A stretch of DNA of 64,000 nt from Gracilimonas mengyeensis (GCF_900182705.1 NZ_FXTP01000009.1:1-64000); one strand, 5' to 3'; counted from the first letter of the stretch, positions 38,477-56,324 are shown. Program-made: numbers and translations. Notes: a model not told the origin generated them from the sequence alone.

Positions 38477-38597
38477 AAGTCGTGGTATTGAAGTAAGTTT
38501 ATAGTATTGTGCAACTTCTCTTATTCTAACTCATAAACGGTTAAAATGGTCCGAAAAACTGACATTTAAAAGTGAAAGAGCATTGAAGAGGAGCTAC

Positions 38598-39590: not shown

Positions 39591-40244
39591 TTACTTCTGT
39601 TGTGACCATTCTTTAAGAAAGCGGTTGAAAAACTCTTCCATAAACCGGTGACGTTCTTCCGCGATTTCTCTGGCAGATTCGGTATTCATTCGATCCTTTA
39701 GCAAAAATAATTTTTCATAAAAGTGATTGATGGTTGGGCCGTTGCTCTTTTTGTAGGCCTCAAACGAAGTATGCTTTTCCGGGTTGATGTTGGGATTATA
39801 AAGAGCGCGCCCTTTGTGGCCGCCGTAAGCAAAAGCCCGGGCTATACCTATGGCCCCGATAGCATCCAGGCGGTCAGCATCTTGCACTACTTTACCTTCT
39901 ATGGTTTTCATAGGTGTTTCCACCTCAGATCCTTTAAAGGAGACACCTCGTATGATATCACAAACCTGATCGATGACCCGATCATCGACTTCCAAACTTT
40001 TTAGCCACTTTCGCGCGGTAGCGGGACCAATATCTTCATCACCTTCATGAAATTTATGATCAGCAATATCATGAAGGAGAGCAGCCAGCTCTGCCACAAA
40101 GAGATTAGCCGATTCTTTTTCTCCAAGCTTCAGGGCCATATTTCGTACCCGGTGGATGTGCCACCAGTCATGCCCGGTGCCTTCGCCTTCCAGTGTTTTG
40201 CGTACATATTCTTCAGTTTTTGAAATAATTTCAGTTTCTTTCAT
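39591..40244 (-). CDS. HD-domain metal-dependent phosphohydrolase (YedJ-like)
   Basis: A 217-aa cytosolic HD-superfamily protein. The metal ligands are the His in GHDWWHIHRVRNMAL, the HD pair in AALLHDIADHKF, and the Asp in VVQDADRLDAIGAIGIARAF. The C-terminal HFYEKLFLLKDRMNTESA is usual for the YedJ/YpgQ group, thought to act on nucleotides or other phosphates. The exact substrate is unknown. The gene is divergent from the lactonase-like gene, with a 75-bp shared promoter region. Confidence 0.93.
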   Translation of the reverse strand: MKETEIISKTEEYVRKTLEGEGTGHDWWHIHRVRNMALKLGEKESANLFVAELAALLHDIADHKFHEGDEDIGPATARKWLKSLEVDDRVIDQVCDIIRGVSFKGSEVETPMKTIEGKVVQDADRLDAIGAIGIARAFAYGGHKGRALYNPNINPEKHTSFEAYKKSNGPTINHFYEKLFLLKDRMNTESAREIAEERHRFMEEFFNRFLKEWSQQK

Positions 40245-40319
40245 CTCTTTGTATTATAGGTTTTGGAACCGAAATGTTTTAATTACATTCACAATCAACA
40301 ATAAACTAAATAAAGGGTT

Positions 40320-41222
40320 ATGAAAAAGGTTGTATATCGGAGTTTACTAATTATTGGGTTGGTTTCATTTGGAGGATTTGTTCAAGCACAAGATCTTGTT
40401 AAAGAAGGAGCTGAAATTCAACAAATTACAGCAGGGCATCAATTCACGGAAGGACCATTTTGGCATGAAGATGGGTTTTTATTGTATAGCGATATTCCTG
40501 CAAACAAAATTTTTAAGTGGACTCCAGAAGAGCAGAAAACCATATTTTTGGACCCTTCAGGGAATTCTAATGGCATTACTGACGATCTCCATGGGGGGAT
40601 GGTGATTGCACAACACGCGGGTAAAGTTTCTCAATTGGATGCGGAAGGAAATACAACCTTATTGCTTGATTCCTATCAAGGCAAGCGGTTTAATAGCCCA
40701 AATGATCTGATGGTCACTTCGGATGGAACCCTCTATTTCACCGATCCTCCCTACGGAGTGCAGCCTGAAGATCGGGAACTTGACTTCTGCGGGGTATATC
40801 GCTGGAAGGATGGTATGGAAGAAGCTGAACTTTTATTTGATGAATTTGAAACTCCTAACGGATTAGTTTTTGCCCCTGATGAAAGCCGCTTTTATGTAAA
40901 CGATACGCAAACAGGACAAATCTATGTGTTTGATATAGATGATGATGGCACGGTATCAGAAGGGAGTCTATTTGCCGAAGTTGGTCCGGCCACCAATAAC
41001 GGTGCTGCTGACGGCATGGTAGTAGATGAAAACGGCAATCTTTATTCAACAGGACCCGGAGGCATTCATATCTTTGATGCAGAAGGAAACAAGCTTACCC
41101 ATATCGAAACCCCGGAAACTGTAACCAATCTGGACTGGGGACGTGAAGGAAATCAAACCTTATTTATGACCAGCCCGACTGGCATCTACACCCTTGAGAT
41201 GAACGTCAACGGTTGGTGGTAA
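40320..41222 (+). CDS. Secreted SMP-30/gluconolactonase family protein
   Basis: A 300-aa six-bladed propeller lactonase-like enzyme. The signal peptide ends at GGFVQAQ (about residue 24). Metal-site candidates are the Glu in FTEGPFWHEDG, Asn/Asp in KRFNSPNDLMVTSDGTLYF with TDPPYG, the Asn in LFDEFETPNGLVF and the Asp in NGAADGMVVDENGN. Family members open sugar lactones or organophosphates with Ca2+ or Zn2+. Export suggests it works on a periplasmic or outer sugar lactone. Confidence 0.92.
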   Translation: MKKVVYRSLLIIGLVSFGGFVQAQDLVKEGAEIQQITAGHQFTEGPFWHEDGFLLYSDIPANKIFKWTPEEQKTIFLDPSGNSNGITDDLHGGMVIAQHAGKVSQLDAEGNTTLLLDSYQGKRFNSPNDLMVTSDGTLYFTDPPYGVQPEDRELDFCGVYRWKDGMEEAELLFDEFETPNGLVFAPDESRFYVNDTQTGQIYVFDIDDDGTVSEGSLFAEVGPATNNGAADGMVVDENGNLYSTGPGGIHIFDAEGNKLTHIETPETVTNLDWGREGNQTLFMTSPTGIYTLEMNVNGWW

Positions 41223-41224
41223 AC

Positions 41225-41310
41225 AGTAGGACGGATAGATTTATCCGTCCTTACAAAATATAGCAGGTAGGTTGCTTTCTACAATGGTCGGGCAAATCTG
41301 CCCGACCTAC
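41225..41310. repeat. Inverted pair of REP-type hairpins
   Basis: Two hairpins face each other. The first is a 10-bp stem with loop GATT (41228-41251). The second is a 9-bp stem with loop AATC (41286-41307), which reads GATT on the other strand. Aligned in the same sense both fit GTAGGwCGGryA-GATT-TryCCGwCC. Shared loop and stem bases with opposite orientation define a REPIN-like doublet. It lies 3 bp after the lactonase stop and could also act in RNA processing or stability. Confidence 0.85.
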
Positions 41311-41666
41311 GTTGGATATAGGCACAAAAAATCTGTGATTATTAGCTTAATCTGCGTTCTATGCCTGCATTCAACATTGGAATGAGGACGCGGTTGACGC
41401 TGATCTTGCGGATTGAAACTGATTTGAACTGTGATAGTTGTGATGATTATTGATGCATTGTGATATTTTTCATTACCGTATTAAAAATTATTATTGATAT
41501 CACAGGTTTACACGAATAATACAATACCCAACATCTGATTAACAAATGTCAACAAATGCCACTGGGCGAAGCTTTTCTATAATTTTTCTTCACTTATCCG
41601 CCCAATCCGTGTCATCCGCATTCCATTCAAATGTAGCCTTATAAAAGGATACCCAACTCATCCCAA
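41311..41666. repeat. Gene-free gap with diverged inverted repeat
   Basis: No gene is seen. Arms at 41377-41414 and 41594-41630 are imperfect inverted copies (roughly 70% by eye), both built of short GCGGAT/GACACGGAT-like words that look about 9-nt periodic. The ~180 bp between them is AT-rich. I read it as an old repeat element; a promoter for nothing in particular is visible, since both flanking genes end here. Confidence 0.5.
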
Positions 41667-42836
41667 TTAATTCTCCGGATCATTCAGAAAATCCATGCAG
41701 GAACACAGCGGGGCAATGACTTCTTCCTTGAGTGCATCAACCCGGGCTAAGGCTTTTTCAACGGTTTCTTTTTCTACCTTGCCTTCACGGAGTAATTTTT
41801 GGATGATGCCGATGGCCCGCTCGGCAATATCCTCTTCATACACCAGGTTGTTTCCAAATATCAGGATATCCACGCCGGCATTCAGCGCCTGCTGGATTGC
41901 GGTCTCCAACCCATATTCTTCCCGGATGGCATCCATCTGCATATCATCCGAAAACACTACGCCTTCAAAACCAAGCGAATCTCTTAGTAGGCCATTAATG
42001 GTTTTATCTGACAGCGTAGCCGGCCAAACCGAATCAATCTTGGCGTTGAAAATGTGGGCTGTCATTACCGCCCGGATAGTATCTTGGGCAAACAGTTCCC
42101 GGTAGGGAATTAGCTCCTCTTTTGACCAGGTATCTGTTACATCGGTAAAGCCAAGGTGACTATCGGTGGTAGAGCTGCCATGTCCGGGAAAATGCTTCAA
42201 TACGCTTAACATGCCTTCCTTGGAGTACTCATCGATAGTGTAGCCGGCATGTTCGGCCACTTTTATGGGATTGGAAGAGTAACTGCGTTCCAATTTGCCA
42301 ATAACCGGGTTATCGGGATTGGTGTTTACATCCAACACCGGCGCAAAATTGGTGTTTGTTCCCACTACCATAAATTCCTGCGCCATGATGCGGGCATAAT
42401 GCCGTGTTGAATCTTCATTATCCAAATTTCCCAAATACTCTGCCGATACGGACTCCGGAAAGCCTTTGCTTTCCTTTAGGCGGCTCACCAGTCCACCTTC
42501 CTGGTCCACGGCAATAATAGGAGAGGTCGGAGCAGAAGCAATGATGTCGTTAGTAAGCTGCATCAGTTGCGAGGGATCTTCAATATTCCGGCTACGATTA
42601 CCTGTGATCACATCACGGTCAAAGAGAACCACTCCGGCTATGTTTCGCTCGGTAAGGTCTTCATAAACGGGACTGTCTTCGGTCAGCTCGGTGCCTCTAA
42701 AACCAACCAAAATAAGTTGCCCCAGGCGTTCTGCCGGGATGATTTCATCCTCATGATCAGCCTTGGGATTTTCCTGGGCGCATCCCAAAAAGGAAAAGGC
42801 AGCCAGCCATAGTAAAACAGCGATTATTCGAATCAT
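41667..42836 (-). CDS. GH3 beta-N-acetylhexosaminidase-like lipoprotein (NagZ-type)
   Basis: A 389-aa glycoside hydrolase family 3 protein. The lipobox is FSFLGC (about residue 19), so it is a lipoprotein, unlike the cytosolic NagZ of E. coli. Family motifs: IAVDQEGGLVSRL, the NagZ loop KHFPGHGSSTTDSHLGFTDV with its Asp/His acid-base dyad, and the nucleophile Asp in GVVFSDDMQMDAI. It probably removes GlcNAc from peptidoglycan fragments or chitin-like sugars in the periplasm. Its start overlaps the TlpA-like gene stop by 4 bp (ATGA). Confidence 0.92.
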   Translation of the reverse strand: MIRIIAVLLWLAAFSFLGCAQENPKADHEDEIIPAERLGQLILVGFRGTELTEDSPVYEDLTERNIAGVVLFDRDVITGNRSRNIEDPSQLMQLTNDIIASAPTSPIIAVDQEGGLVSRLKESKGFPESVSAEYLGNLDNEDSTRHYARIMAQEFMVVGTNTNFAPVLDVNTNPDNPVIGKLERSYSSNPIKVAEHAGYTIDEYSKEGMLSVLKHFPGHGSSTTDSHLGFTDVTDTWSKEELIPYRELFAQDTIRAVMTAHIFNAKIDSVWPATLSDKTINGLLRDSLGFEGVVFSDDMQMDAIREEYGLETAIQQALNAGVDILIFGNNLVYEEDIAERAIGIIQKLLREGKVEKETVEKALARVDALKEEVIAPLCSCMDFLNDPEN

Positions 42837-44290
42837 TGGTTCATATGTTGTCGGGTTGATAAGAGACTGTCAAGTACCGTGCGGAAGTTAAAAGAGGGGC
42901 GGATATCGTTATAGCGGGCAATATTTCCATCCGGATCAACTAAAACATAAAAAGGGATGCCTCCGCCTTTGTACGCTTTAAAAGTTTCTTCCTGGAAGCC
43001 ATCGCCCCCATAAAGTTGTGGCCAGGGTAAATCCAGCCGGTTGATATCCTGCAGCCATACCAAGCTATCGGCTTCGTTGGAGATCCCGATGATTTCCAGC
43101 TCATCCCGTGAATATTCCTGGTAGATATCTTTCATATGAGGAAACTCATCCAGGCAGGGCTGACACCATCCCGCCCAAAAATCAAGCAATACAAACTTAC
43201 CGCGGTAGTCTTCCATGGTGTGCATGTCTCCCTCACGATCAGGCAAAGCAAAAGGTACGGCAGGCTGACCCGGAGAAACAGATTTGATTTCATTATAGAA
43301 CCAGGTCAAAAGTTCAGTGTATTCGGGATAATCCTGGAATTCCTCTAAATAGTCTTCGTAACTGGGTTTGGCAATTTCAATACCTTGCTCGCCGATTCGT
43401 TCAGCTACCAGGTACATGCGGGCATGGGCCAGGGCATCGCGGCTCTCAATATAATCCAGCACCTGCAGGCGCTTCTCATTTAGTTCTTCATAGGCCAATT
43501 GCTTGATGTCATATTCAGAAAGGTCCATTCCATAGGCTGCCTTCACGCTATCATAAATACCAAAAGTACGTGCATAATAATGCGCAAAGTCCCGGATACC
43601 GGCGCGTTGAGCTTTAAGGGATTCGATGGTGAAAAAGTTGTGGGTTTTAGCCTCAGCAAAAACAGCCTTTCGAGCGGAATCTGAGTCAAAATTATCCAGA
43701 TGACGTCCGTTGTATTCGATAGTGCGAATTTTATAAACCAAGTGTTCACCGAGTGCTTTCCAGTAATATTCTTTTAACGGAGTATCAAAAAGGTATTGAT
43801 GAGCAGCGTCAACCTTTTGCTGGCTGAGATCGGTCAAATTATTTGAGGTTCCATTTTTACTCTTTTCCACTTCTTCTGAAATCCGAGAAGATAAACCATC
43901 TATAGATTGCAGATACTGCTGGTAATTTTGATCCCATGCTTGTTCATAGCCTTCTACAGTTACGCCTTGAGGAAAATCTGCCCGCCTAATCTGAATGTTT
44001 AGTTCCTGATTGTCATTTATTACTACCGGATACGAATTATCTTCAATAAGTATGTATCGGAGGGTTTGGTTTTCAGCTATAACCTGGTATTGAAAGTCAC
44101 CATTTGCATCAACGTTGATGGTATCCTGCTGAAGTGGGGCATACTTATAGTGAATGGGGCTTTCTTCAATTATTAATGGTGTATCTCCCATATAATCGAT
44201 GTTACCATCAATACTGGCTGAATCCTCCCCACAACCAATAGATAGGATAGAGGTAAATATAAGCAGGGCACTTAGTCTGATATTTTTCAT
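42833..44290 (-). CDS. TlpA-like thioredoxin lipoprotein
   Basis: A 485-aa envelope thiol-disulfide protein. The lipobox is ILSIGC (residue 20). Residues ~28-110 form a DUF4369-like beta domain (DTINVDANGDFQYQVIAENQ), ~120-340 are helical, and the C-terminal TlpA/AhpC-type thioredoxin domain has the active site FWAGWCQPCLDEFPHM (CQPC). The cis-Pro site is in GGGIPFYVLVDPDG. It probably reduces or oxidises disulfides in secreted proteins. First gene of a two-gene operon with the GH3 lipoprotein. Confidence 0.92.
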   Translation of the reverse strand: MKNIRLSALLIFTSILSIGCGEDSASIDGNIDYMGDTPLIIEESPIHYKYAPLQQDTINVDANGDFQYQVIAENQTLRYILIEDNSYPVVINDNQELNIQIRRADFPQGVTVEGYEQAWDQNYQQYLQSIDGLSSRISEEVEKSKNGTSNNLTDLSQQKVDAAHQYLFDTPLKEYYWKALGEHLVYKIRTIEYNGRHLDNFDSDSARKAVFAEAKTHNFFTIESLKAQRAGIRDFAHYYARTFGIYDSVKAAYGMDLSEYDIKQLAYEELNEKRLQVLDYIESRDALAHARMYLVAERIGEQGIEIAKPSYEDYLEEFQDYPEYTELLTWFYNEIKSVSPGQPAVPFALPDREGDMHTMEDYRGKFVLLDFWAGWCQPCLDEFPHMKDIYQEYSRDELEIIGISNEADSLVWLQDINRLDLPWPQLYGGDGFQEETFKAYKGGGIPFYVLVDPDGNIARYNDIRPSFNFRTVLDSLLSTRQHMNQ

Positions 44291-44582
44291 ATAGTCCTAT
44301 TTTTTAAATCAACATATAAACGCATAATTCTGAAGAAAGGTTTAATATTTAAGTACTAAATAATGGTGTTTACTAATATAAGATGACTTATGCGGGTAGA
44401 TTCAAAAAAAAATGAAAAAAATTTGTAACAATCAGCGGTTTGCTTACTCTTGTTACTAAATGAGCCGCAACATGGGCTAAACAAATTTATAGTGCTATTG
44501 GGTTTATAAAATTGTTGCTTGAAAGCAAGCCCGGTGACATGATGGCTATTGTGGCACTGTTGGTAAATATAAATGAACGAAA
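44291..44582. promoter_or_regulatory. Divergent intergenic region with TTGTTAC elements
   Basis: This 292-bp gap separates the TlpA-like gene (minus) from the anti-sigma-like TPR gene (plus). It contains TTGTTACA on the minus strand at 44431-44424 and TTGTTACT on the plus strand at 44450-44457, each pointing toward the gene it precedes. The same octamer, followed by T-rich DNA, occurs twice upstream of the ECF sigma gene at 49.8 kb. A role as a promoter -35 element is an inference. Confidence 0.4.
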
Positions 44583-45326
44583 ATGATTGAAAATAAAGCA
44601 AATAAAGACCTCGAGAGGAAAATAGATCTCTACATAAACGGTGAGTTGGATGCTGAGGCTGCCGATGATTTATGGGCTGAACTGATTCAGGACGACTATT
44701 ATCTAGATTACATGAAAAGTGCAGCTAATGTAAAAGCTATTGTTGAACAGAGAAGATCTGAAAAACCTGAATCAGACATCTATTCGATCAAAAGAGCAAT
44801 GCAGTATGCTGCAGCTGCCGCTGTTATATTAATTACTGCCACTTTAGGGGTATTGAATATGGATTCTTCTGGAAATTTAACGGTAAGCCCATTATCTGAT
44901 ATTGGACTTGAGGTTATACGAAATACAGAAGGCGTATCTGAGTCGGTAACAAATGAAGTAGTTCGTAAAGCAATTCGGCTTGCCACAGATGGACAAGTGG
45001 AGCAAGCGATTGGCTTATTGGAAAACGAGTTGGGCGAAACCTCAGATTCTCAAACCAAAGCAGAAATTGCGCTAAGTTTAGGTTCTATTCAATATAATAA
45101 AGGTGATTATCTTGCCTCAGTTAATAGTTTTGAGTTAGTTGTACAGCAACAGGATGTTGAGGCCTTGACACTTGAAAAAGGCTATTGGCTTTTAGGTAAT
45201 ACTTATTTTCAGTTAGACAGGCTGGAAGATGCAGAACAGGCTTTTCAGAGAGCTTATGAGCTGAACGGTGCATACAGCCGAGTTGCTAAAACCTACGTAG
45301 ACGCTTTGGGTAGCGTTTCTGAATAA
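44583..45326 (+). CDS. Anti-sigma-like single-span protein with periplasmic TPRs
   Basis: A 247-aa protein. The cytosolic N-terminus (KIDLYINGELDAEAADDLWA, residues ~13-32) resembles the first helix of non-zinc anti-sigma factors (xLYLxGELxxEE). A membrane span follows at about 72-92 (AAAAAVILITATLGVL). The outside part (~120-247) has TPR-like helices: ALSLGSIQYNKGDYLASVNS and YWLLGNTYFQLDRLEDAEQA. I infer that it anchors a sigma factor and senses an envelope partner through the TPRs. It converges with the TPR-CHAT gene, and a terminator follows it. A proven anti-sigma match is lacking. Confidence 0.7.
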   Translation: MIENKANKDLERKIDLYINGELDAEAADDLWAELIQDDYYLDYMKSAANVKAIVEQRRSEKPESDIYSIKRAMQYAAAAAVILITATLGVLNMDSSGNLTVSPLSDIGLEVIRNTEGVSESVTNEVVRKAIRLATDGQVEQAIGLLENELGETSDSQTKAEIALSLGSIQYNKGDYLASVNSFELVVQQQDVEALTLEKGYWLLGNTYFQLDRLEDAEQAFQRAYELNGAYSRVAKTYVDALGSVSE

Positions 45327-45409
45327 TACCTGAAGAAATTCGATAGTAAATTAAATCACCCAAAACATAACTTTAAAAGAGAGACCTGCAAATTACCGAT
45401 ACTATTATT

Positions 45410-45446
45410 AAAGGCTGAATTCACGAAAGTGATTTTCAGCTTTTTT
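45410..45446 (+). terminator. Terminator after the anti-sigma-like gene
   Basis: A hairpin with arms GGCTGAATTCAC and GTGATTTTCAGC around a GAAA loop (45413-45440), with one bulge, runs into six T. It lies about 85 bp after the stop. Confidence 0.85.
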
Positions 45447-45603
45447 ATGTTTATGATGTATATGATTAATGTCCACATGGCTAGATCGAAACACCGAGAG
45501 AAAGCTATAATGATGGGAATCTTTTTTAGGATGTTGTTAGAACAGGCGATAAATAATTATACAGAATTAATTGGATTGTATATAGATATTAAACTGCCCT
45601 GTC

Positions 45604-48600
45604 TTAAAACCAGGATTTTCCTCTGCGTTCTCTCTTGTATGAGATATAACCGGAGAGCAGGATGGTGGCGGCAAGCAAGCTATAAAGAAACATGGGATGA
45701 TTATTTCTGGAAGTAATGGGGGCCGGATTGCCAATCATCATGTAAGCTCCCCAGAAGTGAGGATTTGCGTTTGCCGACTTTAGTTGATTTAGTTTTGCAT
45801 TACGCATGGCCTCATGTTTAGGTAGCCCTTCATCCAGGTACTGATAGAAATCCGTTGAAATCTGCGCAGCAACTTTATCATTAACAGACCACAAATTAAG
45901 AGCCATACCTTTGACACCGGCATATCTTAATGCGCGGCTAATACCGAGAATTCCGGTGCCCTGCATATAATTGCCAGAACCCGAACTACAGGAGTTCAGC
46001 ATTATAAATTCACTGTTCAGCGGAGTATCGAAAAGCTCATAAGCATAGAGTGCCTGTTCAGATTCTAACGAATCAGCGTTATCTCTTCCTTTGAGGTAGA
46101 TGGTAGAGAAAAGCGGATCTTGTTCTGAGATTTCACTGTGAGTGGCCACATGAACAATTCGGGAAGAAGATATTTCCTCTTTAAAAGTTTCTTTAGTTGC
46201 TGCGTCACCAATGTGAATTTTTTTACTTTTTAAAGAATTTAATGCACCGTAAATATCTTTAGTTTCTTCTGTAGCATAAGGTAACGAGGGAAGGTCAGCT
46301 GATTCAAATTCACTAAAATCAGAAATGGCGAAAGCGGTAAAATCCTGCTTTGTATTGATATCAAAAATCCGTCGGTTAGCATCTAACTCTGCTAATGAAT
46401 TAAAGTAGCTTATATGATAATCCTCGATCAAGTATTTGGTACTTCCAAAACTATAATCTGAGTCAGGTTTATGAGTTGGCAGAATTTCTAAAGGTATACG
46501 GTAAATAAATTGATCAGGGATGATTGAAATCTTTGAAATAGATGCTGGAACTTCATCAAGGTCTAATTTTTGATACAGATCATACAGATGTTGCAAATTG
46601 GTTTTACCTGAAGCAATTTCGTCTCCGATGGAAGAGAACCTCTGTTGAAGACTGAAAGGATAATCGTGTTTGCGAACCTTTACGTCATCAGAAGTAATCA
46701 TGGTGACATAGAAATGTTCGCCCAATTCAGTGAAATGAAGAGCTAATTCATCTTCTTCAATAGCCCGTTGTATTTTCCAAAGCGGAGGTAAGGATTCTTC
46801 CGCCGCTACATTAATCTTTGCCAAGATCTCTTCACGTTCTGCAGAAACACGTTCGATTTCAGTTTTTATAGCAAAACGATTTGACTCAGGAGCATTAAGA
46901 TATTTCTTTCTAAGATTCTGTAATTGATTGTTTAATCGTTTCTCTTTTGCAAGTTCCTGTTCAGTTAATTTGGCGGCCTTTACCAAAGGACTGTTATATA
47001 AAGAGGCATCGTTAATGGTTTTCAATTCATCCAACACAATTAGCGCCTGCTCCGGATTTCCGCTCTCTAAGTATAAATCTACCATCAATTCGAAAGCATC
47101 AAGATATTCTTCTTCAACGGACCAATACCCTTCTTGAGAATCGGTATTATTTTTTGACAAACTTATAATCTGCTGGATTACAGGGGCTAGTGTGCTAATT
47201 GCACCTCTGTAGTTATTCTCCTTAAGAAGATATTCAGATTTAATTCTGAAATAAGTAGTGAGAGTAGGGAAATCTAAGATGTCTAATGAGTATAGTTCTA
47301 TTTCATTGAGTTTCTCGGATGCTTGTTCTATTTCGTTTTGCTGAAGGTTTATTAAAGCTTTGTTAATGATTCCCTGTAGATATTTTTGAGTATCCGACTT
47401 AGATAACGATAACTTTACAACTTTATCAAAAACGAGTTCTGCTTTTTCTAAAGAATCCGTTTTTATATAAATTAACCCTTTCTGGACAAGCAACTGTATG
47501 TACTTGGAATAATTATTATCAACGTTTAAAATCTCTTCTGCAGATTCTAAATGCTGAATAGCTTTTTCTTGATCTTTGTATGTAGACCAGTAAAAAGTCC
47601 CTAAATATGAATCAATAAGTGCTAATTCTGTTGTATCAGCATTTTCTAAAGCTAAATTTTTTGCTTTTTCAATATAAGTCAGAGCAGAAGCAATATCTTT
47701 GGCATTTGTATAGTAAAGAAAAAGGTTTCTATAGACATTTAGTAAATTCTTATAATTTGCAGCATCGTGTTCCAATGCTTTTAGTTGAAATGAAATATAT
47801 TTATTCGAATATCCTAATCGATAGTAATTGATTCCAAGGTTGGTGAAAATATAAAAATCACTTTGCCCATTGTTTCTGTAAATGTCTTCATAGATATTTT
47901 TAGATTCTTCATATTTTCCTAAAGAATATAGATATACTCCTTGGCGCTTTTTAATCTGCTTTATTTCGTCTTTATCTCCAATGTACTCTGCAAGTGGAAG
48001 AGAATAATTTCTTTGGATGTCCAAAGATTTGTCATATCTGTCAAGAAAAAAATATGAATAATCAATGGCACTATATACTCTGTATAAAAAGTTGGAGATA
48101 GGTAATATATCTGAGTTTATTATGTCTTGGGAATATTTGTTAACCAAGTTGTATTCATCCAACATAAAAGCAACCCAAGTAGCTTCTGAAACGATCAAGT
48201 AATACTCTAAATCCTTTTTGGTCTTATTATTTTCGATATAATTGTCCCACGTTTCCAATGCTTTCAATAAATATTCCTCTGTATAATAATTACTATGATT
48301 TCTGTTCATTAGTAATTTGAGGTGAAGGTAAGGAGCTTCTAGAAACCCCAATTCTCTTTCAGTAATATCAGTTTTATTGTCAATTATGTCATAGTACAAT
48401 TGCTGATGAGACTTAGGCCAAAAATGCTTTATAGTGAGACTGTCAAAAGTATTTTTATCATTATTGCAAGACAATTTACTCTTGTAATCATCAAAGCTGG
48501 TATGATCATCAATAGAAGATTTGACAATTCTTAATGCCTGACAGTTTGTCTGTGCAATTTCATTGATCGCCCAAAAATTTAGAATAGACAGATCATTTCT

Positions 48601-48732
48601 CTCGACATTCTCAATAAACCCGTTAAGTTGTTTTTTAATTTCATTATCAAGGTTAGTAGAGTCTTTGTCTACAGAAGAAAAAGATGAAAATGAAAATATA
48701 ACAATGATAATGTATAGCAAAGGAGGAGACAA
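45604..48732 (-). CDS. TPR-CHAT protease, membrane anchored
   Basis: A 1042-aa protein. A hydrophobic N-terminus (LLYIIIVIFSFSSFSS) looks like a signal peptide. TPR-type helical repeats cover about 170-600, with a coiled segment near 600-660. The caspase-like CHAT domain spans ~690-1010, with catalytic His865 in IVHVATHSE and Cys915 in MLNSCSSGSG. A C-terminal span (FLYSLLAATILLSGYIS) ends in basic KRERRGKSWF, which should stay in the cytosol; the protease would then face the periplasm. The start is TTG 48732 or TTG 48720, as a stop lies directly upstream. Family knowledge: CHAT proteases cut specific partner proteins. The target here is unknown; the small lipoproteins and anti-sigma-like protein next to it are candidates. 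Confidence 0.9.
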   Translation of the reverse strand: MSPPLLYIIIVIFSFSSFSSVDKDSTNLDNEIKKQLNGFIENVERNDLSILNFWAINEIAQTNCQALRIVKSSIDDHTSFDDYKSKLSCNNDKNTFDSLTIKHFWPKSHQQLYYDIIDNKTDITERELGFLEAPYLHLKLLMNRNHSNYYTEEYLLKALETWDNYIENNKTKKDLEYYLIVSEATWVAFMLDEYNLVNKYSQDIINSDILPISNFLYRVYSAIDYSYFFLDRYDKSLDIQRNYSLPLAEYIGDKDEIKQIKKRQGVYLYSLGKYEESKNIYEDIYRNNGQSDFYIFTNLGINYYRLGYSNKYISFQLKALEHDAANYKNLLNVYRNLFLYYTNAKDIASALTYIEKAKNLALENADTTELALIDSYLGTFYWSTYKDQEKAIQHLESAEEILNVDNNYSKYIQLLVQKGLIYIKTDSLEKAELVFDKVVKLSLSKSDTQKYLQGIINKALINLQQNEIEQASEKLNEIELYSLDILDFPTLTTYFRIKSEYLLKENNYRGAISTLAPVIQQIISLSKNNTDSQEGYWSVEEEYLDAFELMVDLYLESGNPEQALIVLDELKTINDASLYNSPLVKAAKLTEQELAKEKRLNNQLQNLRKKYLNAPESNRFAIKTEIERVSAEREEILAKINVAAEESLPPLWKIQRAIEEDELALHFTELGEHFYVTMITSDDVKVRKHDYPFSLQQRFSSIGDEIASGKTNLQHLYDLYQKLDLDEVPASISKISIIPDQFIYRIPLEILPTHKPDSDYSFGSTKYLIEDYHISYFNSLAELDANRRIFDINTKQDFTAFAISDFSEFESADLPSLPYATEETKDIYGALNSLKSKKIHIGDAATKETFKEEISSSRIVHVATHSEISEQDPLFSTIYLKGRDNADSLESEQALYAYELFDTPLNSEFIMLNSCSSGSGNYMQGTGILGISRALRYAGVKGMALNLWSVNDKVAAQISTDFYQYLDEGLPKHEAMRNAKLNQLKSANANPHFWGAYMMIGNPAPITSRNNHPMFLYSLLAATILLSGYISYKRERRGKSWF

Positions 48733-48806
48733 TTAATCCAAATTAGATTTAAATTTACTTAAAATTTTATCGAATTCAATTTAGATTAGATAGGTATTTG
48801 ATCTTA

Positions 48807-48986
48807 TTACCAGGGTTTTTCGATAACGGGATCCATTTCGTTTCCACCGTTAAATACAGCGTCATCGGCAGTGATTTCGGTGTCAGGCTGGTCGGCGTCG
48901 TTCAGGGAAGCATCGGTAACGGAAGCACATCCGAAAGACAGGGTTGCGATGACGAGGATAGCGAAGATAGACTTGAGAGCTTTCAT
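48807..48986 (-). CDS. Small acidic lipoprotein, copy A
   Basis: A 59-aa lipoprotein, starting MKALKSIFAILVIATLSFGC, with lipobox Cys at 20. The mature part is ~40 residues, strongly acidic (NDADQPDTEITADD) and ends in VIEKPW. It differs from copy B by two residues (Ala3/Ser, Val12/Ala). It lies between copy B and the TPR-CHAT gene, all on the minus strand, 74 bp before the latter. I know no named family for it. It could be a ligand, substrate or inhibitor of the CHAT protein; that is only from position. Confidence 0.8.
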   Translation of the reverse strand: MKALKSIFAILVIATLSFGCASVTDASLNDADQPDTEITADDAVFNGGNEMDPVIEKPW

Positions 48987-49043
48987 GGTGATACAAGGGT
49001 TTGATTAAAAGAGTGTGATGTAATGAGCGTGAGTTGTTGTTGA

Positions 49044-49223
49044 CTACCAGGGTTTTTCGATAACGGGATCCATTTCGTTTCCACCGTTAAAAACAGCGTC
49101 GTCGGCAGTGATTTCGGTGTCAGGCTGGTCGGCGTCGTTCAGGGAAGCGTCGGTAACGGAAGCACATCCGAAAGACAGGGTTGCGATGGCGAGGATAGCG
49201 AAGATAGATTTAAGTGATTTCAT
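49044..49223 (-). CDS. Small acidic lipoprotein, copy B
   Basis: The second copy of the 59-aa lipoprotein, starting MKSLKSIFAILAIATLSFGC, 57 bp upstream of copy A. The two genes are about 95% identical in DNA (some 8 differences in 180 bases, mostly silent), so the duplication is recent or kept alike by recombination. The open frame extends upstream to 49448, but the signal peptide shows the start at 49223. It should be first in the transcript leading to copy A and the CHAT gene. Confidence 0.82.
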   Translation of the reverse strand: MKSLKSIFAILAIATLSFGCASVTDASLNDADQPDTEITADDAVFNGGNEMDPVIEKPW

Positions 49224-49807
49224 GGTGTTTAAGTTTGAAATGGTTATATGTGTTGTAATTAAAATGATGGTATCAAGAAGAAATTTGGCAGGTATATGGT
49301 GTTGGATAAAGGGTGCATCATAATTATGATATCCCTGATAATTGTCATAAAGATTTAAAGTGGTTGTGGCATTTATAGTGTCCTTCAATACTGTAATGCC
49401 ATTAAATTCGAAAGGCTCAAAGCCCAAAAGTCCCATAACCAAAGCCAACGTATTAGTTCTACTTATTGATAATTTTCGTAAATCACTAATTTTAAAATGT
49501 AGTGATAGTTAAGTACAAGAGTATTTCAATGCCGTTTTGTTACAATTTTTTCTAAAATTTTATAATCTGGCAAAAACACAGTTATACTTAAGCATAAGAG
49601 TATTGAAACTCCTATTTGTTACACATTTAATCTAAATTTTAATATTCATAGCTGCCACTTCCTTTCCAAAAAGCATTAACAATTCAAAAAAAATAACTTA
49701 TTATTAACAGGTAAAATGAATCAGAACTAAATAGTTCGTTAGTATACCTTGTCTGTATTCGTATAAGGAGAATACAATTAAGGAATTGAAATTTTCAAAA
49801 ACTATAG
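49224..49807 (+). promoter_or_regulatory. Long divergent intergenic region with a duplicated ~60-bp block
   Basis: This 584-bp gap separates the lipoprotein operon from the ECF sigma gene. A block with TTAAG, AAGAGTATT, TTTGTTACA and TCTAAA-TTTTA occurs at about 49508-49567 and again at 49586-49648, offset by 79-80 bp. Both copies read toward the sigma gene. Each TTTGTTACA (49536-49544, 49616-49624) could be a -33/-35 element. No RNA or further gene is visible. Confidence 0.6.
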
Positions 49808-50377
49808 TTGGTTAGTTTGGCAAATAGAGTTGATTATTCAGAACTCGTAGAGGCACTCCAAAAGGGAGATGATGAGAAAGCCAGCGAGCTGTTATCGGAA
49901 GTAATACCACGTTTAGAGGATTATTTACGGGTTTCTCTCAAGGCTGATCGTAATGCAGCAAAGGAATGTGTGCAACAAGCTTTCCTGGATGTATTTGAGC
50001 AGATACGGAAGAATAATATCAAGAACAGCCAATATATCTACAGCTATTTGATCAAATCATGCAAACACGAGTTCTACCGATATAAAAAGCGACAGCATCG
50101 GTTTGATTACGATGACAGTGCTTTTACAGATATCTATGACCCCGAAGAGCAGTATGAAAATTTGCTGGATAAAGAGCGTCAGCGGATATTAGAAGAGTGT
50201 CTGGATGAATTAAGGGATGAGTCACGTGAATTTATCGAGTACTTTATTGACAAGCCATATGCAAGTACGCAAGAGGCTGTCGAGAAATTTGACATCTCAA
50301 ATGCGAACGTACGCACCCGTAAACATCGTATTTTGAGCCGTTTGCATCATTGCTACAAGCGAAAGTCAAATCAGTAG
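49808..50377 (+). CDS. ECF sigma factor
   Basis: A sigma-70 family factor of 189 aa. Region 2 includes YLRVSLKADRNAAKECVQQA with FLDVFEQIRKNN and the IYSYLIKSCKHEFYRYKK helix. Region 4 is ECLDELRDESREFIEYFIDK followed by TQEAVEKFDISNANVRTRKH. The frame opens after TAG 49805 and offers only TTG starts (49808, 49817), so translation is expected to be weak. No anti-sigma gene overlaps it; the anti-sigma-like TPR protein at 44.6 kb is the nearest candidate. It is divergent from the lipoprotein/CHAT operon, which it may control. Confidence 0.9.
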   Translation: MVSLANRVDYSELVEALQKGDDEKASELLSEVIPRLEDYLRVSLKADRNAAKECVQQAFLDVFEQIRKNNIKNSQYIYSYLIKSCKHEFYRYKKRQHRFDYDDSAFTDIYDPEEQYENLLDKERQRILEECLDELRDESREFIEYFIDKPYASTQEAVEKFDISNANVRTRKHRILSRLHHCYKRKSNQ

Positions 50378-50389
50378 GGTTATTCCTTC

Positions 50390-50998
50390 CTAGAAGTGAA
50401 TACGTAGGCCGCTGGCGGTAATTTCAAGCTGATCCGATATATTTATTAGGCCGTTGGTTAAAGGGCTGTGCAACAGATATAAGACCACATCGAATGCAAA
50501 TAAAAAGCCACCTTGCAAAAGCAAAGATTTTCCATACCCTATCAGTCGATTGGAATCTTTTCGCAAACCTCTTTCCCAGAGCCAGGCTCCCGTTGCCATG
50601 TAACCGATATCCAGGCCGGCATTAAAAAGCAGAATCTTATCTAAGCTTTGAAGCTGTTGTAAAGACTCAGAATAATTCCAGGATAATACATCGTTTTGTG
50701 CGATTTGATAGTAAGCAAAACCAGCAATTCCAAGATTAACAAGATTCCATGCGGCATTCATTTGGTGGAAATATCTGGGACTTTTCTCGCTCAAAAAATA
50801 CCCTGTTGATCCCGATAAAATATTCAACGTAGCCCAACTACCCAGTAAAATCATACCCTTTTTTTGAACTTGTTGTGATTTTTGTGCGTAAAAATCGGCC
50901 TCAAAAGGCATGTTTTGAGCGTGTAACAGCGTCGGTAATAAGGCCAATAAGAAGATTAAAAAAGCAATTGAGAGGTTTTGAAAAGGAGTGTAACACAC
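50390..50998 (-). CDS. DUF6992-like membrane protein
   Basis: A 202-aa protein. A signal-like hydrophobic N-terminus ends near LLHAQ. Several weak membrane segments follow (GMILLGSWATLNILSGSTGYF, LVNLGIAGFAYYQIA, LLLQGGFLFAFDVVLYLLH). This layout, with the repeated MILLGSWA and LLLQGGFL pattern, matches small Bacteroidetes membrane proteins named DUF6992. Function unknown. It lies 8 bp after pdeM in the same direction and may share its transcript. Confidence 0.72.
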   Translation of the reverse strand: MCYTPFQNLSIAFLIFLLALLPTLLHAQNMPFEADFYAQKSQQVQKKGMILLGSWATLNILSGSTGYFLSEKSPRYFHQMNAAWNLVNLGIAGFAYYQIAQNDVLSWNYSESLQQLQSLDKILLFNAGLDIGYMATGAWLWERGLRKDSNRLIGYGKSLLLQGGFLFAFDVVLYLLHSPLTNGLINISDQLEITASGLRIHF

Positions 50999-51006
50999 TT
51001 TTAGCC

Positions 51007-51675
51007 TTATCTAAATTTTGGAGATATTTTTACTATGCTATCTTCAACAATGGCAAACACGGTATCATTCTGTGCGGGGGAAATGTGATATGTTCCGGTA
51101 AAGGCTCCAAAGGCAGGAAGGATGGCTTGTTGGTTTCCAAAAAAGAAACAGGGGACATGCAAACTTTGCCGGCCTTTGCTTTTTAATTGAACAGCTGGAT
51201 GAATATGGCCCGAGATGGTGTAACTACCTTTATCTTGTTTTTCGGCTTCATCGTGTAAAAAAAGAAAAGGGCCGCATTGATAACGGTTTACACATTCAAG
51301 TTCCATCTTCTCGTACTCAAACCGTGTTAACAGGTCATGATTGCCAATGGTTAATATCATTGAAATGGAGGCATGCGATTTTCTCCAGTCACCAAATCGT
51401 TCTATTTCTTCATTGGGATCGCTGTGAAAAAGATCACCAAGAAATAAAATGGTTTTTGGACGAAGTTCTTCTACTAGTCCATTGAGCCTTTTAATATTGG
51501 ATTGATTTACGGTATCAGGTATGGCAATTCCGTTTTTGCGGAAATGAGCGGATTTACCCCAATGAACATCAGAGACGATCAGCATATCCTGTTCTTTCCA
51601 AAACATAGCCTTTTGTGGCAGAAGCAGCAGAGTTTGATCCTGAATACGTATTTTTTGGCTTTGATTTTGAGTCAT
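51007..51675 (-). CDS. pdeM: Ligase-associated DNA damage response endonuclease PdeM
   Basis: A 222-aa calcineurin-type metallophosphoesterase. Metal motifs are VSDVHWGKSAHFR, LGDLFHSD, GNHD in TIGNHDLLTRF, and SGHIHPAV. Length and motif spacing fit PdeM, which is found with an Lhr-like helicase, an ATP-dependent ligase and a beta-CASP exonuclease. Its start overlaps the helicase stop by 4 bp. Only helicase and PdeM are present here; the ligase and exonuclease must lie elsewhere or be absent. Confidence 0.93.
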   Translation of the reverse strand: MTQNQSQKIRIQDQTLLLLPQKAMFWKEQDMLIVSDVHWGKSAHFRKNGIAIPDTVNQSNIKRLNGLVEELRPKTILFLGDLFHSDPNEEIERFGDWRKSHASISMILTIGNHDLLTRFEYEKMELECVNRYQCGPFLFLHDEAEKQDKGSYTISGHIHPAVQLKSKGRQSLHVPCFFFGNQQAILPAFGAFTGTYHISPAQNDTVFAIVEDSIVKISPKFR

Positions 51676-54284
51676 TTGACGTGTTTCTCTAATTGAACCT
51701 GCATCTTTTTGATGCGATCAATCAATTTTTCTGAGCTTAGCTTTTCCCGAAGACGGTCTACCATAATTGGGAAAGCATAGGGCGTGAACCGTTCGGTTTC
51801 CTTAAAGATAATATCCTGTTCTGAGATCTTTTTTAAAGCTTTACTCAAACGGACTTCATCCAGCTGATAACTTAATACTTCATCAAAAGCTTGTTGAAGT
51901 AGTAAATGGTCGGGTTCATATTCCATAAACACTTCGAAGAATAAACCGCTTGACATCTGCAGGTGCCGGTTGGTTTTGGCCTGACCGGGAAAGCCCTGGA
52001 ATACCAAGCCTGCGATTTGGCAAATTTCCCGAAACCGGCGTTTTGCTAACTCTGCACTGTTGATGCTGGCCATAATATCCTCAACCAGGTTTTTTGAGGA
52101 AAATAAATCATTACCCAAGGCTTCTTTAATGGGGATATCTTTATCAGAGAGTAATTCAAAGCCATAATCATTCATAGCAATGGAGAAGGTTATGGGCGTC
52201 ATTTCAGAGATTCTGTGTGCAATCAACGCAGACATCCCCTCATGCACATAACGACCTTCAAAGGGAAAAAAGAAAACGTGACATCCTTCCCGGGAAAATG
52301 ATTTTTCAATCAAGAATTGATTTTCATCCGGTAAGATAGACCAATCGCGCTGGATACTAAACAGAGGTTCAAGCGTTTTCAGCTCAATGTCTTCAGCATT
52401 GCCGGCTACGGCTTGGTGCATCTTCTTGCGTAAGATGTGCGTCATATTCGAAGATAGGGACATCCGTCCGCCCATATACGCCGGTACTATGGAAGAGGCT
52501 CCTTTTGCCCGGCGAACATACACCGTCATATCTTTGATCTTAACCAGTTCAAGGTTGCGCCCCGCAAACCAAAAGGTATCGCCGGTATTCAGTTGCGCGA
52601 TAAACCACTCTTCTACACTTCCTAAAGACTTTCCACTCATATATTTCACCCGTAGCATAGCGTCACTGGAAATGGTGCCAATACTCATTCGATGGCGACG
52701 GGCAATTTTACGGCTGGTGACTTTATGAAGTCCGTCCTCATCCATCTCCACTTTGGAATATTCATTGTAACTGCTCAGCGATTTTCCGCCTGAAGTAATG
52801 AACTGAAGGATTTGCTTCCATTCTTTTTGTGAAAGTGTTTGATAGGCAAAAGTGTTTTTTACTTCTTCAAAAATTTCATCCGGAAGAAAACCATCTGAGA
52901 CGGCAAGTGTCACCAAATACTGGATCAGAACATCATAGGGTTTTAGGATAGGATCCCGGCTTTCCATTTCTTCTTCAGAAACCTCTATAGCTGAACGCAG
53001 AGCGGCGGCCTCTACCAATTCCAGGGCATGGGTGGGTACAAAGTAAATAGAGCTCGTAGAGCCGGGTTGATGACCGCTACGACCGGCCCGCTGCATGAAA
53101 CGGGCTACTCCTTTAGGACTTCCAATTTGGATCACGGTTTCTACAGGGGTAAAGTCTACTCCCAAATCCAGGCTGGAGGTACATACTACGGCTTTTAGTA
53201 TTCCATCATGCAGCGAAGCTTCCACCCAGTCGCGTACTTTCCGATCCAATGAACCATGATGAATAGCGATAGTGCCCGCTAAATCAGGATTGGCTTCCAG
53301 CAGGTTTTGGAACCAGATTTCAGATTGGGCACGGGTATTGGTAAAGATAAGCGTAGATCGGCTTTTCTCAATTATAGGTAAAATTTTGGGTAGTAATTTC
53401 AGCCCCAAGTGACCATGCCAGGGAAAGTTTTCCATTTCATCAGGGAGAATGGATTCAGCTTTAATGTTCTTTTTTACATTAGCTTTGATGATTTTTCGGT
53501 TTTTCTGTGGCTCAGGCCCGGTCAAAACATCCAGAGCCTCATCCAGATTTCCAATGGTGGCTGAAATTCCCCAAACTGCTAAATCGGGTCGTAATCCCCT
53601 CAACCGTGAAAGAGCCAGCTCTGTTTGTATCCCCCGTTTAGAGCCCAACAGTTCATGCCATTCATCAACAATTACAGCATCCAGATTTTTGAAGTGCCGT
53701 TCATAGTTTTTTTGAGCAAACAAAATATGGACGCTTTCCGGCGTAGTGATGAGCACTTCCGGCATCTTCCGGTTCTGCTTTTGTTTGATGGATTGAGAGA
53801 CATCGCCGGTTCTTCGGCCGATCTCCCATGGAATATCCATCTCATCTACCGATTGCTGTAGTGCCTTTTGGATATCTTTTGCCAAGGCCCTTAGCGGAGT
53901 TATCCAAAGAACTTTTAACCCGTTTTTTGTCGTTTCCTGGTAGTTGTCGGGATGCTTATTTATCCATTTTATCAGGTTGGGCATCCAGAGCGCAAATGTT
54001 TTTCCGCTACCGGTAGGAGCATTCAAAAGCCCGTTTTTCCCCGACAAAAAAGCATCCCAAACCTCCTGTTGAAAAGGAAAGATGTCCCAGTCTTTAGAGG
54101 CAAACCATTCTGAAATACGTTGATGACCTTTGGTAGACAAGTGCAAAAAATTCGGGGTGATAAGTTGTTCAGCAATGGTAAAAAAATTGCCGGCTAAAAA
54201 GTTCAAAGAATTAGGTAGAGTTCCCTCATCAAATGAAATATCTGATGTATTTAAAGAGCGTGCCAGAAAAATAGAGTTGTGCAA
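51672..54284 (-). CDS. Ligase-associated DEXH-box helicase (Lhr-like)
   Basis: An 870-aa SF2 helicase. Walker A is NAPTGSGKTFALW, the Walker B/DExH box is VIVDEWHELLG, motif III lies in WGISATIGN, motif IV is FTNTRAQSE and motif VI is QRAGRSGHQ. A DUF/winged-helix C-terminal half is typical of the Lhr-core group. The first ~50 residues before GHQRISEWFASKDWDIFPFQ have no counterpart in the usual family start, so a later TTG (in LHLSTKG) could be the true start. First gene of the helicase-pdeM operon. Role: DNA repair with PdeM and a ligase. Confidence 0.93.
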   Translation of the reverse strand: MHNSIFLARSLNTSDISFDEGTLPNSLNFLAGNFFTIAEQLITPNFLHLSTKGHQRISEWFASKDWDIFPFQQEVWDAFLSGKNGLLNAPTGSGKTFALWMPNLIKWINKHPDNYQETTKNGLKVLWITPLRALAKDIQKALQQSVDEMDIPWEIGRRTGDVSQSIKQKQNRKMPEVLITTPESVHILFAQKNYERHFKNLDAVIVDEWHELLGSKRGIQTELALSRLRGLRPDLAVWGISATIGNLDEALDVLTGPEPQKNRKIIKANVKKNIKAESILPDEMENFPWHGHLGLKLLPKILPIIEKSRSTLIFTNTRAQSEIWFQNLLEANPDLAGTIAIHHGSLDRKVRDWVEASLHDGILKAVVCTSSLDLGVDFTPVETVIQIGSPKGVARFMQRAGRSGHQPGSTSSIYFVPTHALELVEAAALRSAIEVSEEEMESRDPILKPYDVLIQYLVTLAVSDGFLPDEIFEEVKNTFAYQTLSQKEWKQILQFITSGGKSLSSYNEYSKVEMDEDGLHKVTSRKIARRHRMSIGTISSDAMLRVKYMSGKSLGSVEEWFIAQLNTGDTFWFAGRNLELVKIKDMTVYVRRAKGASSIVPAYMGGRMSLSSNMTHILRKKMHQAVAGNAEDIELKTLEPLFSIQRDWSILPDENQFLIEKSFSREGCHVFFFPFEGRYVHEGMSALIAHRISEMTPITFSIAMNDYGFELLSDKDIPIKEALGNDLFSSKNLVEDIMASINSAELAKRRFREICQIAGLVFQGFPGQAKTNRHLQMSSGLFFEVFMEYEPDHLLLQQAFDEVLSYQLDEVRLSKALKKISEQDIIFKETERFTPYAFPIMVDRLREKLSSEKLIDRIKKMQVQLEKHVK

Positions 54285-54425
54285 TTCAGGTATGGAATAA
54301 GTGAGAGATTGAACCTCGGCAAAAACCTTTTACAGCATTAATCGCATAAAAAAGCGTTTCCACTTGATTCTCCGCTAAAAAAATCCCAACATCACCTAAA
54401 ATTTCTAATCATTTAAAAATCAACT

Positions 54426-56324
54426 ATGTGGTTAAATATTAAATCCTTTGAGGAATACCAGCAGACATTCAGGGAAAGCGAAAAAGATCGCTTACGGTTT
54501 TGGGAACATGAAGCGGGAACATTTTATTGGCGCAAACGATGGGAGAATACCCAATCCGGCAGTTTCGAAGATGCGAACATAAAGTGGTTTGAAGGCGGCA
54601 AACTCAATATCACCGAAAATGCTTTGGACCGCCATCTGAATACCATTGGGAACAAGACCGCTTTTATTTTTGAACCTAATCACCCGGATTCATTTCGCCG
54701 GACTATCACCTATAAACAATTGCACGAAGACGTATGCCGCTTTGCTAATGTCTTGGAAAGTAAAGGCATCAAAAAAGGCGATCGCGTGGTTATTTATATG
54801 GCCATGACGCCTGAACTGGTCATCTCAGCTCTGGCATGCGCTCGAATTGGAGCGGTGCATTCTATTGTTTTTGCAGGATTTTCAGCCCAGGCACTTTCTG
54901 AACGTATCAATGATTGCGATGCCAAAATGTTGATTACCAATGACGGACTCCGTCGTGGCGACAAGCACGTTCCCTTAAAAGATATTTCAGATGAAGCTCT
55001 GGAAAGCAGCCCTTCAGTAGAAAGCGTTATTGTTTGCCAGCGCACCAACCGTGATATCGACTGGAAAGAAGGGCGTGATGAATGGTGGCATATGCTCATT
55101 CGGAATGCGTCCAAAGATCACGAGGCGGTAGAGATGGATGCGGAAGATCCGTTGTTCATTCTTTATACGTCCGGTTCAACAGGCAAACCCAAAGGCGTTG
55201 TGCACACCTGTGGAGGGTACATGGTGTATACGAGCTATTCATTCAGACAGGTGTTCCAGGTAGGAGCCGATGATGTCTACTGGTGTACGGCCGATGCCGG
55301 ATGGATTACCGGGCACAGTTATATCATCTATGGTCCATTATTCAACGGCGCTACCGGTATCATCTTTGAAGGAACGCCAACCTATCCGGATGCCGGCAGA
55401 CTTTGGGAGGTAGTAGAGAAATATAAAGTAACGCACTTCTATACCGCACCAACGGCCATTAGAGCGCTCATGTCTTATGATCTGGACTATGTGAAAAAGT
55501 ATGATTTAAGCTCGCTGAAAGTGCTAGGTACGGTGGGGGAGCCCATTAACGAAGAGGCTTGGCACTGGTATCACGATCACATCGGCGGAGGCAAATGTCC
55601 TATTGTGGATACTTGGTGGCAGACGGAAACGGGCGGCATTATGATATCCCCAATGGCGGGTATCACCCCAACCAAACCCGGTTATGCTACCTTACCGTTG
55701 CCTGGCGTGTTTCCAACACTGATGGATGAGAATGGAGATGAAATTGAAGGCAATGCCGTGGAGGGGAACCTTTGTATTAAGCATCCGTGGCCCGGTATTG
55801 CCAGAACCGTGTATGGAGATCATGACCGGTACATTCAAACCTATCTGAGTACCTATGAAGGATACTATTTTACCGGTGACGGCTGTAAGCGGGATGAAGA
55901 CGGCTACTATCGTATTACGGGTAGAGTAGATGATGTGCTTAATGTTTCCGGCCACCGACTGGGTACGGCGGAGATTGAAAACGCACTTGATGAGCATCCC
56001 AAAGTAGTGGAGACTGCTGTAGTGGGCTATCCACACGATGTGAAAGGACAGGGTGTTTACGCTTTTATGATTTGTGATGAAGAAATCAAAGATCCAGAAG
56101 AGTTCAAAAAGGAACTGCTGAATTTGGTGACGAAGATTATCAGTCCGATTGCCAAGCCGGACAAAATCCAGATTGTAAGTGGATTGCCCAAAACCAGGTC
56201 AGGAAAAATTATGCGTCGTATTCTTCGCAAAGTTGCTGCTGAAGACCTCGATAATCTTGGTGATACCTCTACCTTGTTAGATCCAAGTGTAGTAGAGGAT
56301 ATCAAGAATGGGAAAGCGTATTAA
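54426..56324 (+). CDS. acs: Acetyl-CoA synthetase
   Basis: A 632-aa AMP-forming acetate--CoA ligase. The phosphate loop is LYTSGSTGKPKGVVH. The acetate/AMP site includes DTWWQTETGG and GYYFTGDGCKRDEDGYY, and the C-terminal lysine is in PKTRSGKIMRRILRKVA. In other bacteria that Lys is acetylated to switch the enzyme off. Length is slightly below E. coli Acs (652 aa), without visible loss of a domain. It stands alone with its own terminator and likely feeds acetate into the TCA cycle. Confidence 0.96.
   Translation: MWLNIKSFEEYQQTFRESEKDRLRFWEHEAGTFYWRKRWENTQSGSFEDANIKWFEGGKLNITENALDRHLNTIGNKTAFIFEPNHPDSFRRTITYKQLHEDVCRFANVLESKGIKKGDRVVIYMAMTPELVISALACARIGAVHSIVFAGFSAQALSERINDCDAKMLITNDGLRRGDKHVPLKDISDEALESSPSVESVIVCQRTNRDIDWKEGRDEWWHMLIRNASKDHEAVEMDAEDPLFILYTSGSTGKPKGVVHTCGGYMVYTSYSFRQVFQVGADDVYWCTADAGWITGHSYIIYGPLFNGATGIIFEGTPTYPDAGRLWEVVEKYKVTHFYTAPTAIRALMSYDLDYVKKYDLSSLKVLGTVGEPINEEAWHWYHDHIGGGKCPIVDTWWQTETGGIMISPMAGITPTKPGYATLPLPGVFPTLMDENGDEIEGNAVEGNLCIKHPWPGIARTVYGDHDRYIQTYLSTYEGYYFTGDGCKRDEDGYYRITGRVDDVLNVSGHRLGTAEIENALDEHPKVVETAVVGYPHDVKGQGVYAFMICDEEIKDPEEFKKELLNLVTKIISPIAKPDKIQIVSGLPKTRSGKIMRRILRKVAAEDLDNLGDTSTLLDPSVVEDIKNGKAY

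Follow-up and report, generated by a model that had tools for sequence, protein, structure and literature searches.

A conserved TPR-CHAT protease, ECF sigma factor, and lipoprotein gene block of Balneolales as a putative membrane-spanning sigma-factor switch

We report a five-gene block, conserved across the order Balneolales beyond what chance would give, which we read, with the evidence leaning modestly in favor, as a membrane-spanning sigma-factor switch in which a TPR-CHAT protease would cut the inhibitor of an ECF sigma factor. Shown for this reading are the conservation of the genes, a shared promoter that co-evolves, topology signals, intact catalytic residues, and an invariant Arg together with an invariant Asp. 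The window, i.e., the whole 64,000-nt stretch of DNA that was analyzed, comes from the 4.67-Mb genome of Gracilimonas mengyeensis and holds the following genes:

44583-45326, + strand: inhibitor gene, encoding an anti-sigma-like single-span TPR protein of 247 aa (Pfam TPR; AlphaFold)
45604-48732, - strand: TPR-CHAT protease gene, 1042 aa (PF12770, E=5e-47)
48807-48986 and 49044-49223, - strand: two small acidic lipoprotein genes of 59 aa each (96% repeat)
49808-50377, + strand: divergent ECF sigma factor gene (TIGR02937/TIGR02989)

Of 58 relatives, 53 had a homolog of the CHAT protein, in most as a full-length ortholog. Among 40 fetched neighborhoods, 39 contained a CHAT ortholog, and in all 39, within the reach of the contigs, the order was ECF, one to six tandem lipoprotein genes, CHAT, and, on the opposite strand, the inhibitor. 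An alignment-based scan of named genomes, partly covering the same loci as the first neighborhood set, recovered the CHAT family from Gracilimonas, Balneola, Aliifodinibius/Fodinibius, Rhodohalobacter, and other Balneolales. The inhibitor gene lay 3' of CHAT at 54/58 testable loci by script (55/58 including L141, where the two genes overlap by 66 nt), and the ECF gene lay 5' of CHAT at 27 of the 30 loci where sequence reaches it. These synteny counts were not corrected for phylogeny, and most of the genomes are drafts. Flanking genes are also conserved in the nearest family, and the order of the block persists in families with different flanks. Some Balneolaceae (L132, L129) carry two tandem CHAT genes within one module. 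An Rfam search returned no match, and in a scan for consensus sigma-70 promoters and terminators shuffled sequences scored as well.

The ECF protein matched TIGR02989 (E=2.4e-12) and TIGR02937 (E=4e-11; 42.8 bits against a cut-off of 42.9), with the Pfam sigma domains remaining below threshold. No anti-sigma gene overlaps the ECF gene in the window. A bipartite motif, TGTAACA-N14-TACTCTT, has exactly three perfect copies there, each read as a predicted promoter:

44424-44451, + strand: predicted ECF promoter of the inhibitor gene (exact motif match)
49517-49544, - strand: predicted ECF promoter of the lipoprotein-CHAT operon, proximal (exact match; position conserved)
49596-49623, - strand: predicted ECF promoter of the lipoprotein-CHAT operon, distal, in tandem (exact match; position conserved)

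A copy with one mismatch is intergenic at 21723-21750 (- strand). The -35 element TGTAACA was present upstream of the inhibitor at 38/38 loci and on the lipoprotein side at 28/28 where the loci reach it, and the full motif, required to match at ≥12/13, was found in 26 of 38 inhibitor regions and 19 of 26 lipoprotein-side regions, with none in shuffled sequences. Upstream of the ECF gene itself, no motif met that threshold at any of 26 loci. Across ten genomes of the genus there were 34 motif sites versus 0 for a reversed control pattern. The -10 element differs by clade and agrees between both promoters of a locus, its core being CTCTT in most, CTCCT in family f3, ATCAT in L080, ATCCT in L085, and ATCAG in L086; -10 mismatches averaged 0.29 within a locus versus 1.03 in permuted loci, and 0 of 20,000 permutations were as low (phylogeny was not corrected for in this test). 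Fodinibius roseus and F. sediminis (L118, L124) have kept CHAT, inhibitor, and lipoproteins and have lost the adjacent ECF gene; the motif is gone from both of their promoter regions, and the ECF that remains is a paralog beside scpA. This natural knock-out is confined to one lineage and is probably a single event. Read most simply, the motif data have the ECF sigma factor transcribing the lipoprotein-CHAT operon as well as the gene of its own inhibitor, which remains an inference.

Elsewhere in the genomes the motif stands before genes that we read, from their sequences, as pilin-like, AraC-like, PAS-kinase, TspO-like, and lipoprotein genes, each in few genomes. For example, two congeneric genomes (L244, L251) have a pilin-like gene (MGQQQLLLVILVTIIVGIATVVAIN...) behind the motif. 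In the window genome, at C11:160706-161091 (L197), two perfect motifs stand 356 nt apart without a clear downstream protein gene, and the same sigma factor might drive small or non-coding RNAs there.

The CHAT protein matched PF12770 over residues 716-1002 with 161 bits against a curated cut-off of 24, and three of its codons concern the putative active site:

46138-46140, - strand: catalytic His865 codon (HVATHS context; invariant column)
45988-45990, - strand: catalytic Cys915 codon (LNSCSS context; invariant column)
45877-45879, - strand: Asp952 codon (W-x-V-x-D), candidate Arg-binding S1-pocket residue (invariant)

All three residues are invariant in 33 orthologs, and their equivalents are kept in 31/31 diverse CHAT relatives. 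The protein runs from an N-terminal hydrophobic signal through a TPR/helical region and the CHAT domain to a C-terminal transmembrane segment (~1013-1035) and a basic tail; signal and C-terminal segment are retained in 35 orthologs and likewise in the majority of the distant CHAT proteins beside ECF/inhibitor pairs. Topology, here and for the inhibitor, was judged by hydropathy only. The AlphaFold model (pLDDT 84.5) matched the folds of Csx29 (Z 21-25), separase (Z ~20), and DdvA (Z ~19), in agreement with Foldseek. Searched against the PDB, a single CHAT sequence gave only TPR-level noise, and a CHAT-domain profile found DdvA and Csx29, with DdvA as the best sequence match (E=1.4e-10; His and Cys kept). 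We infer from sequence and model that CHAT is a periplasmic, membrane-tethered, separase-like protease, its proteolytic activity being itself an inference. Exported CHAT proteins, mostly anchored at the C-terminus, also occur in other Rhodothermia (L203-L216), with neither an ECF gene nor a separate inhibitor detected nearby.

The inhibitor is predicted to comprise a cytosolic N-domain (residues 5-60), a transmembrane segment (~74-95), and a periplasmic TPR domain (119-247); AlphaFold gave a three-helix N-domain, the transmembrane region, and the TPR domain (mean pLDDT 78.8), and a fold search with the TPR part only matched peptide-binding TPRs at Z ~15. In a Pfam scan of 37 Balneolales inhibitors the N-domain matched no anti-sigma profile, and in the window the sigma and inhibitor genes are not adjacent, with the lipoprotein and CHAT genes between them. 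The wider group shows other arrangements: ECF, inhibitor, and CHAT lie in one direction or operon in L166 (Ignavibacteria) and in L226/L227, the ECF and inhibitor genes overlap beside CHAT in L223, and a KSB1 inhibitor carries a zf-HC2 anti-sigma domain (E=2.5e-9) and adjoins its ECF. Since such clusters exist and a relative has this domain, we infer, and consider the inference strong, that the inhibitor is an anti-sigma factor; sigma binding and inhibition are inferred without an assay. Outside the class, 15 of 26 CHAT loci had an ECF gene in the fetched stretch and 13 had both ECF and inhibitor, against a chance expectation for ECF that we estimate at ~7% (ECF density 16-39 per genome), though these 26 loci are not fully independent. 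Two genomes hold equal numbers of the two proteins (5 CHAT and 5 inhibitors in G138, 4 and 4 in G142), and 12 genomes poor in or without CHAT of this kind had no full-length inhibitor.

A receiver-domain gene (~200 aa; PF00072, E=5e-23 in L078) separates the shared promoter from the inhibitor gene at 12 loci, in families f3, f4, and f5 and in L075 (among them L076, L078, L079, L080, L081, L082, and L084), and is absent from close relatives of the window; it gives no more than a hint of two-component input. The window genome also holds an adjacent paralogous ECF2-inhibitor2 pair beside scpA at C8:120831-122274 (L195 3832-5275) and, ~5 kb from it, a second exported TPR-CHAT at C8:112528-115455 (L087 4438-7365), possibly forming a second system.

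These results bear on a first-pass annotation, made from sequence alone, which had placed in this region a CHAT protease with His865/Cys915, a lipoprotein pair, a divergent ECF gene, and a single-span TPR protein, and had proposed that they form an envelope signaling module. The five genes and their features held, and the module largely held, with the action of the protease on a partner still an inference. Its linkage of the genes had rested on position and domain layout, to which gene order, a co-evolving promoter, ECF co-loss, the DdvA fusion (below), and ECF-inhibitor-CHAT operons of other phyla can now be added; the shared promoter motif had been missed. Its periplasmic placement of CHAT is supported, by hydropathy only, through export and C-terminal anchor signals in 35 orthologs. 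It had counted CHAT genes in relatives lacking a nearby sigma factor or lipoproteins as evidence against the proposal, and such cases were partly met: the two Fodinibius lack an adjacent ECF gene, and no lipoprotein gene was recognized outside Balneolales loci.

For the putative substrate, attention falls on one residue of the inhibitor:

44919-44921, + strand: R113 codon, predicted P1 (LEVIR|N), between the transmembrane segment and the TPR domain (invariant in 37/37)

R113 is one of just 11 invariant columns in the inhibitor alignment, and its context is mostly [DE]xxR followed by a small residue. Residues 112-114 have pLDDT <50, and we read the linker as flexible. At this place the majority of the distant inhibitors have an Arg, or rarely a Lys, with Ser, Gly, or Asn as the next residue (e.g., PITRSE, PTVRGE, FVTRSE, SVSRG), with exceptions in L217, L219, and L288, which have no clear Arg site, and in L242 and L296, which have Lys. 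Separase cleaves behind an Arg where its target is unstructured, the Arg being bound by a conserved Asp (PMC10317155). Asp952 aligns in register with the separase Asp through a weak profile match (E ~0.5), and the aligned Csx29 chains have no Asp there; despite the weak register, Asp952 is likely its counterpart. Since an invariant Arg in a flexible linker and an invariant CHAT Asp952 fit the separase rule, we predict that CHAT cuts the inhibitor after R113 and frees the sigma factor, a cleavage that is inferred without experiment. R113 could instead be a structural or docking residue.

The two lipoprotein genes of the window lie within a 183-nt direct repeat (96% identical), and the family is present in every complete Balneolales locus examined, in one to six copies. 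A signal peptide followed by a lipobox Cys after Gly/Ala/Ser, of the loose Bacteroidota type, was found in 31/31 aligned sequences, from which lipidation is inferred. Within a locus, tandem copies mostly share 87-100% identity, with a single case at 55%, and between species they diverge, which suggests concerted evolution or repeated amplification. Their C-termini are conserved as hydrophobic residues followed by Lys/Arg-Pro (29/31 by a loose pattern; e.g., IVEKPW, IVDRPE, IIKPD), and the CHAT-proximal copy ends in DPVIEKPW. They might be pseudosubstrate inhibitors of CHAT, CHAT substrates that release a peptide, or TPR ligands; we favor modulation of CHAT, with little confidence in its exact mode.

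In the proposed switch, the cytosolic N-domain of the inhibitor would hold the ECF sigma factor, and its periplasmic linker and TPR domain would face the membrane-anchored TPR-CHAT protein. An envelope signal of unknown kind would activate CHAT, which would cut the inhibitor linker after R113 as a site-1 step, like DegS on RseA, and further proteolysis would set the sigma factor free. The freed sigma factor would transcribe the lipoprotein-CHAT operon as a positive arm and the inhibitor gene as negative feedback; a small number of further envelope genes are probable targets too. The lipoproteins co-produced with CHAT may modulate it, perhaps as inhibitor or cofactor. Sigma binding by the N-domain and the CHAT cut at R113 are inferred, as are the signal and what the lipoproteins do. 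A bolder version, which we consider unlikely, is a periplasmic separase/securin-like switch in which the lipoproteins, with their Lys/Arg-Pro, would be uncuttable pseudosubstrates restraining CHAT, CHAT would cut the anti-sigma factor after the invariant Arg, and the protease/anti-sigma core would be ancient in Bacteroidota, Ignavibacteria, and KSB1.

Several known systems resemble the favored switch in part. In type III-E CRISPR (Craspase), Csx30 inhibits CASP-sigma and is cleaved by Csx29 within the cytosol (PMC10028731). A TPR-CHAT protease, an ECF-like sigma factor, and a sigma inhibitor cut by CHAT, here only by prediction, are common to both; however, Craspase is cytosolic, is RNA-activated through Cas7-11, and has a soluble inhibitor, whereas the system here is predicted to be periplasmic and membrane-anchored. 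Membership in CRISPR/Craspase was rejected within the stretch covered: no repeat array was found in window positions 30000-64000, PADLOC gave no match for the four module proteins tested, and the open reading frames at window positions 38000-56000 resemble genes other than Cas7-11 or Csx30. The DdvS/DdvA pair of Myxococcus xanthus (PDB 8rot, 8rw5) likewise combines an ECF sigma factor with a transmembrane anti-sigma factor containing a TPR-CHAT fold, and DdvS controls a defense island (PMC12288465); our statements on DdvA come from PDB titles, alignment, and that paper. In DdvA the anti-sigma, transmembrane, and TPR-CHAT parts form one polypeptide, whereas here two separate genes encode a CHAT with its own C-terminal anchor and an inhibitor with its own TPR domain and linker Arg, with lipoproteins added. 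The earlier suggestion that such logic outside CRISPR and across a membrane would be new was too strong, given this membrane anti-sigma factor. In RseA/DegS/RseP-RpoE and RsiW-type pathways, an extracytoplasmic cut of a single-span anti-sigma factor frees an ECF sigma factor. Such pathways are also reviewed in PMC10028731. DegS, however, is a PDZ trypsin-like protease, and the one here is a clan-CD CHAT protease with a TPR sensor domain. With separase-securin it shares a TPR-like region with a clan-CD protease and, here only by prediction, the Arg cut in unstructured segments and the conserved Asp for P1 Arg (PMC10317155), but that system is eukaryotic with cohesin as substrate, and a securin-like lipoprotein role is speculation. 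TRADD-N/EACC2 caspase systems (PMC8195603) also have a caspase-fold peptidase gene near ECF sigma and TPR (DUF1822) genes, but they are conflict systems with variable sensor/effector domains and other protease and TPR families. Because the literature searched held no description of a separate membrane-anchored TPR-CHAT with an ECF sigma factor, a TPR anti-sigma factor, and lipoproteins, we call this split system a new variant of protease-controlled ECF signaling.

One rival, itself unlikely, is that CHAT trims the lipoproteins and not the anti-sigma factor, the freed C-terminal peptides binding the inhibitor TPR and altering its grip on sigma. For it speak the consecutive lipoprotein and CHAT genes behind one promoter region in Balneolales, the one to six near-identical copies, suggestive of dosage, the conserved lipoprotein C-terminus, and the likeness of the inhibitor TPR to peptide-binding TPRs, with a weak RNPP_C match in the paralog; RRNPP-like peptide sensing is kept only within this weak rival. 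Against it, the lipoproteins are unrecognized outside Balneolales, unlike the CHAT-inhibitor-ECF linkage, and they have no conserved cuttable Arg, their conserved Lys/Arg preceding Pro. Equally doubtful is CHAT as a non-proteolytic sensor subunit, a split DdvA that would bind signal and inhibitor and release sigma without cutting: in DdvA a single chain carries both anti-sigma and TPR-CHAT, and control by binding is possible, but the invariance of His, Cys, and Asp in 33 orthologs and 31 relatives is as expected of an enzyme. Still less probable is CHAT as an output effector of envelope damage or defense, turned on by the ECF sigma factor while another protease releases the inhibitor. CHAT is itself in the predicted ECF regulon and DdvS controls a defense island (PMC12288465), but PADLOC gave no match, CRISPR-like repeats are lacking in window positions 30000-64000, the core-genome location is stable, CHAT and inhibitor pair near 1:1 in two distant genomes, and the invariant inhibitor Arg would be left unexplained. 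Finally, chance adjacency of functionally unconnected neighbors, for which vertical inertia and the flanks conserved in the nearest family could be cited, was rejected and is all but excluded by the order kept where flanks differ, by ECF genes at 15/26 distant loci versus ~7% expected, and by a promoter that is shared, co-evolves, and disappeared together with the ECF gene.

If the proposed switch is true, it would extend caspase/separase-type proteases to cell-envelope signaling in a large bacterial phylum and tie Csx29 and DdvA to a chromosomal system that is widespread. A substrate, a cut site, and a promoter would then be assignable for a CHAT family without known function.
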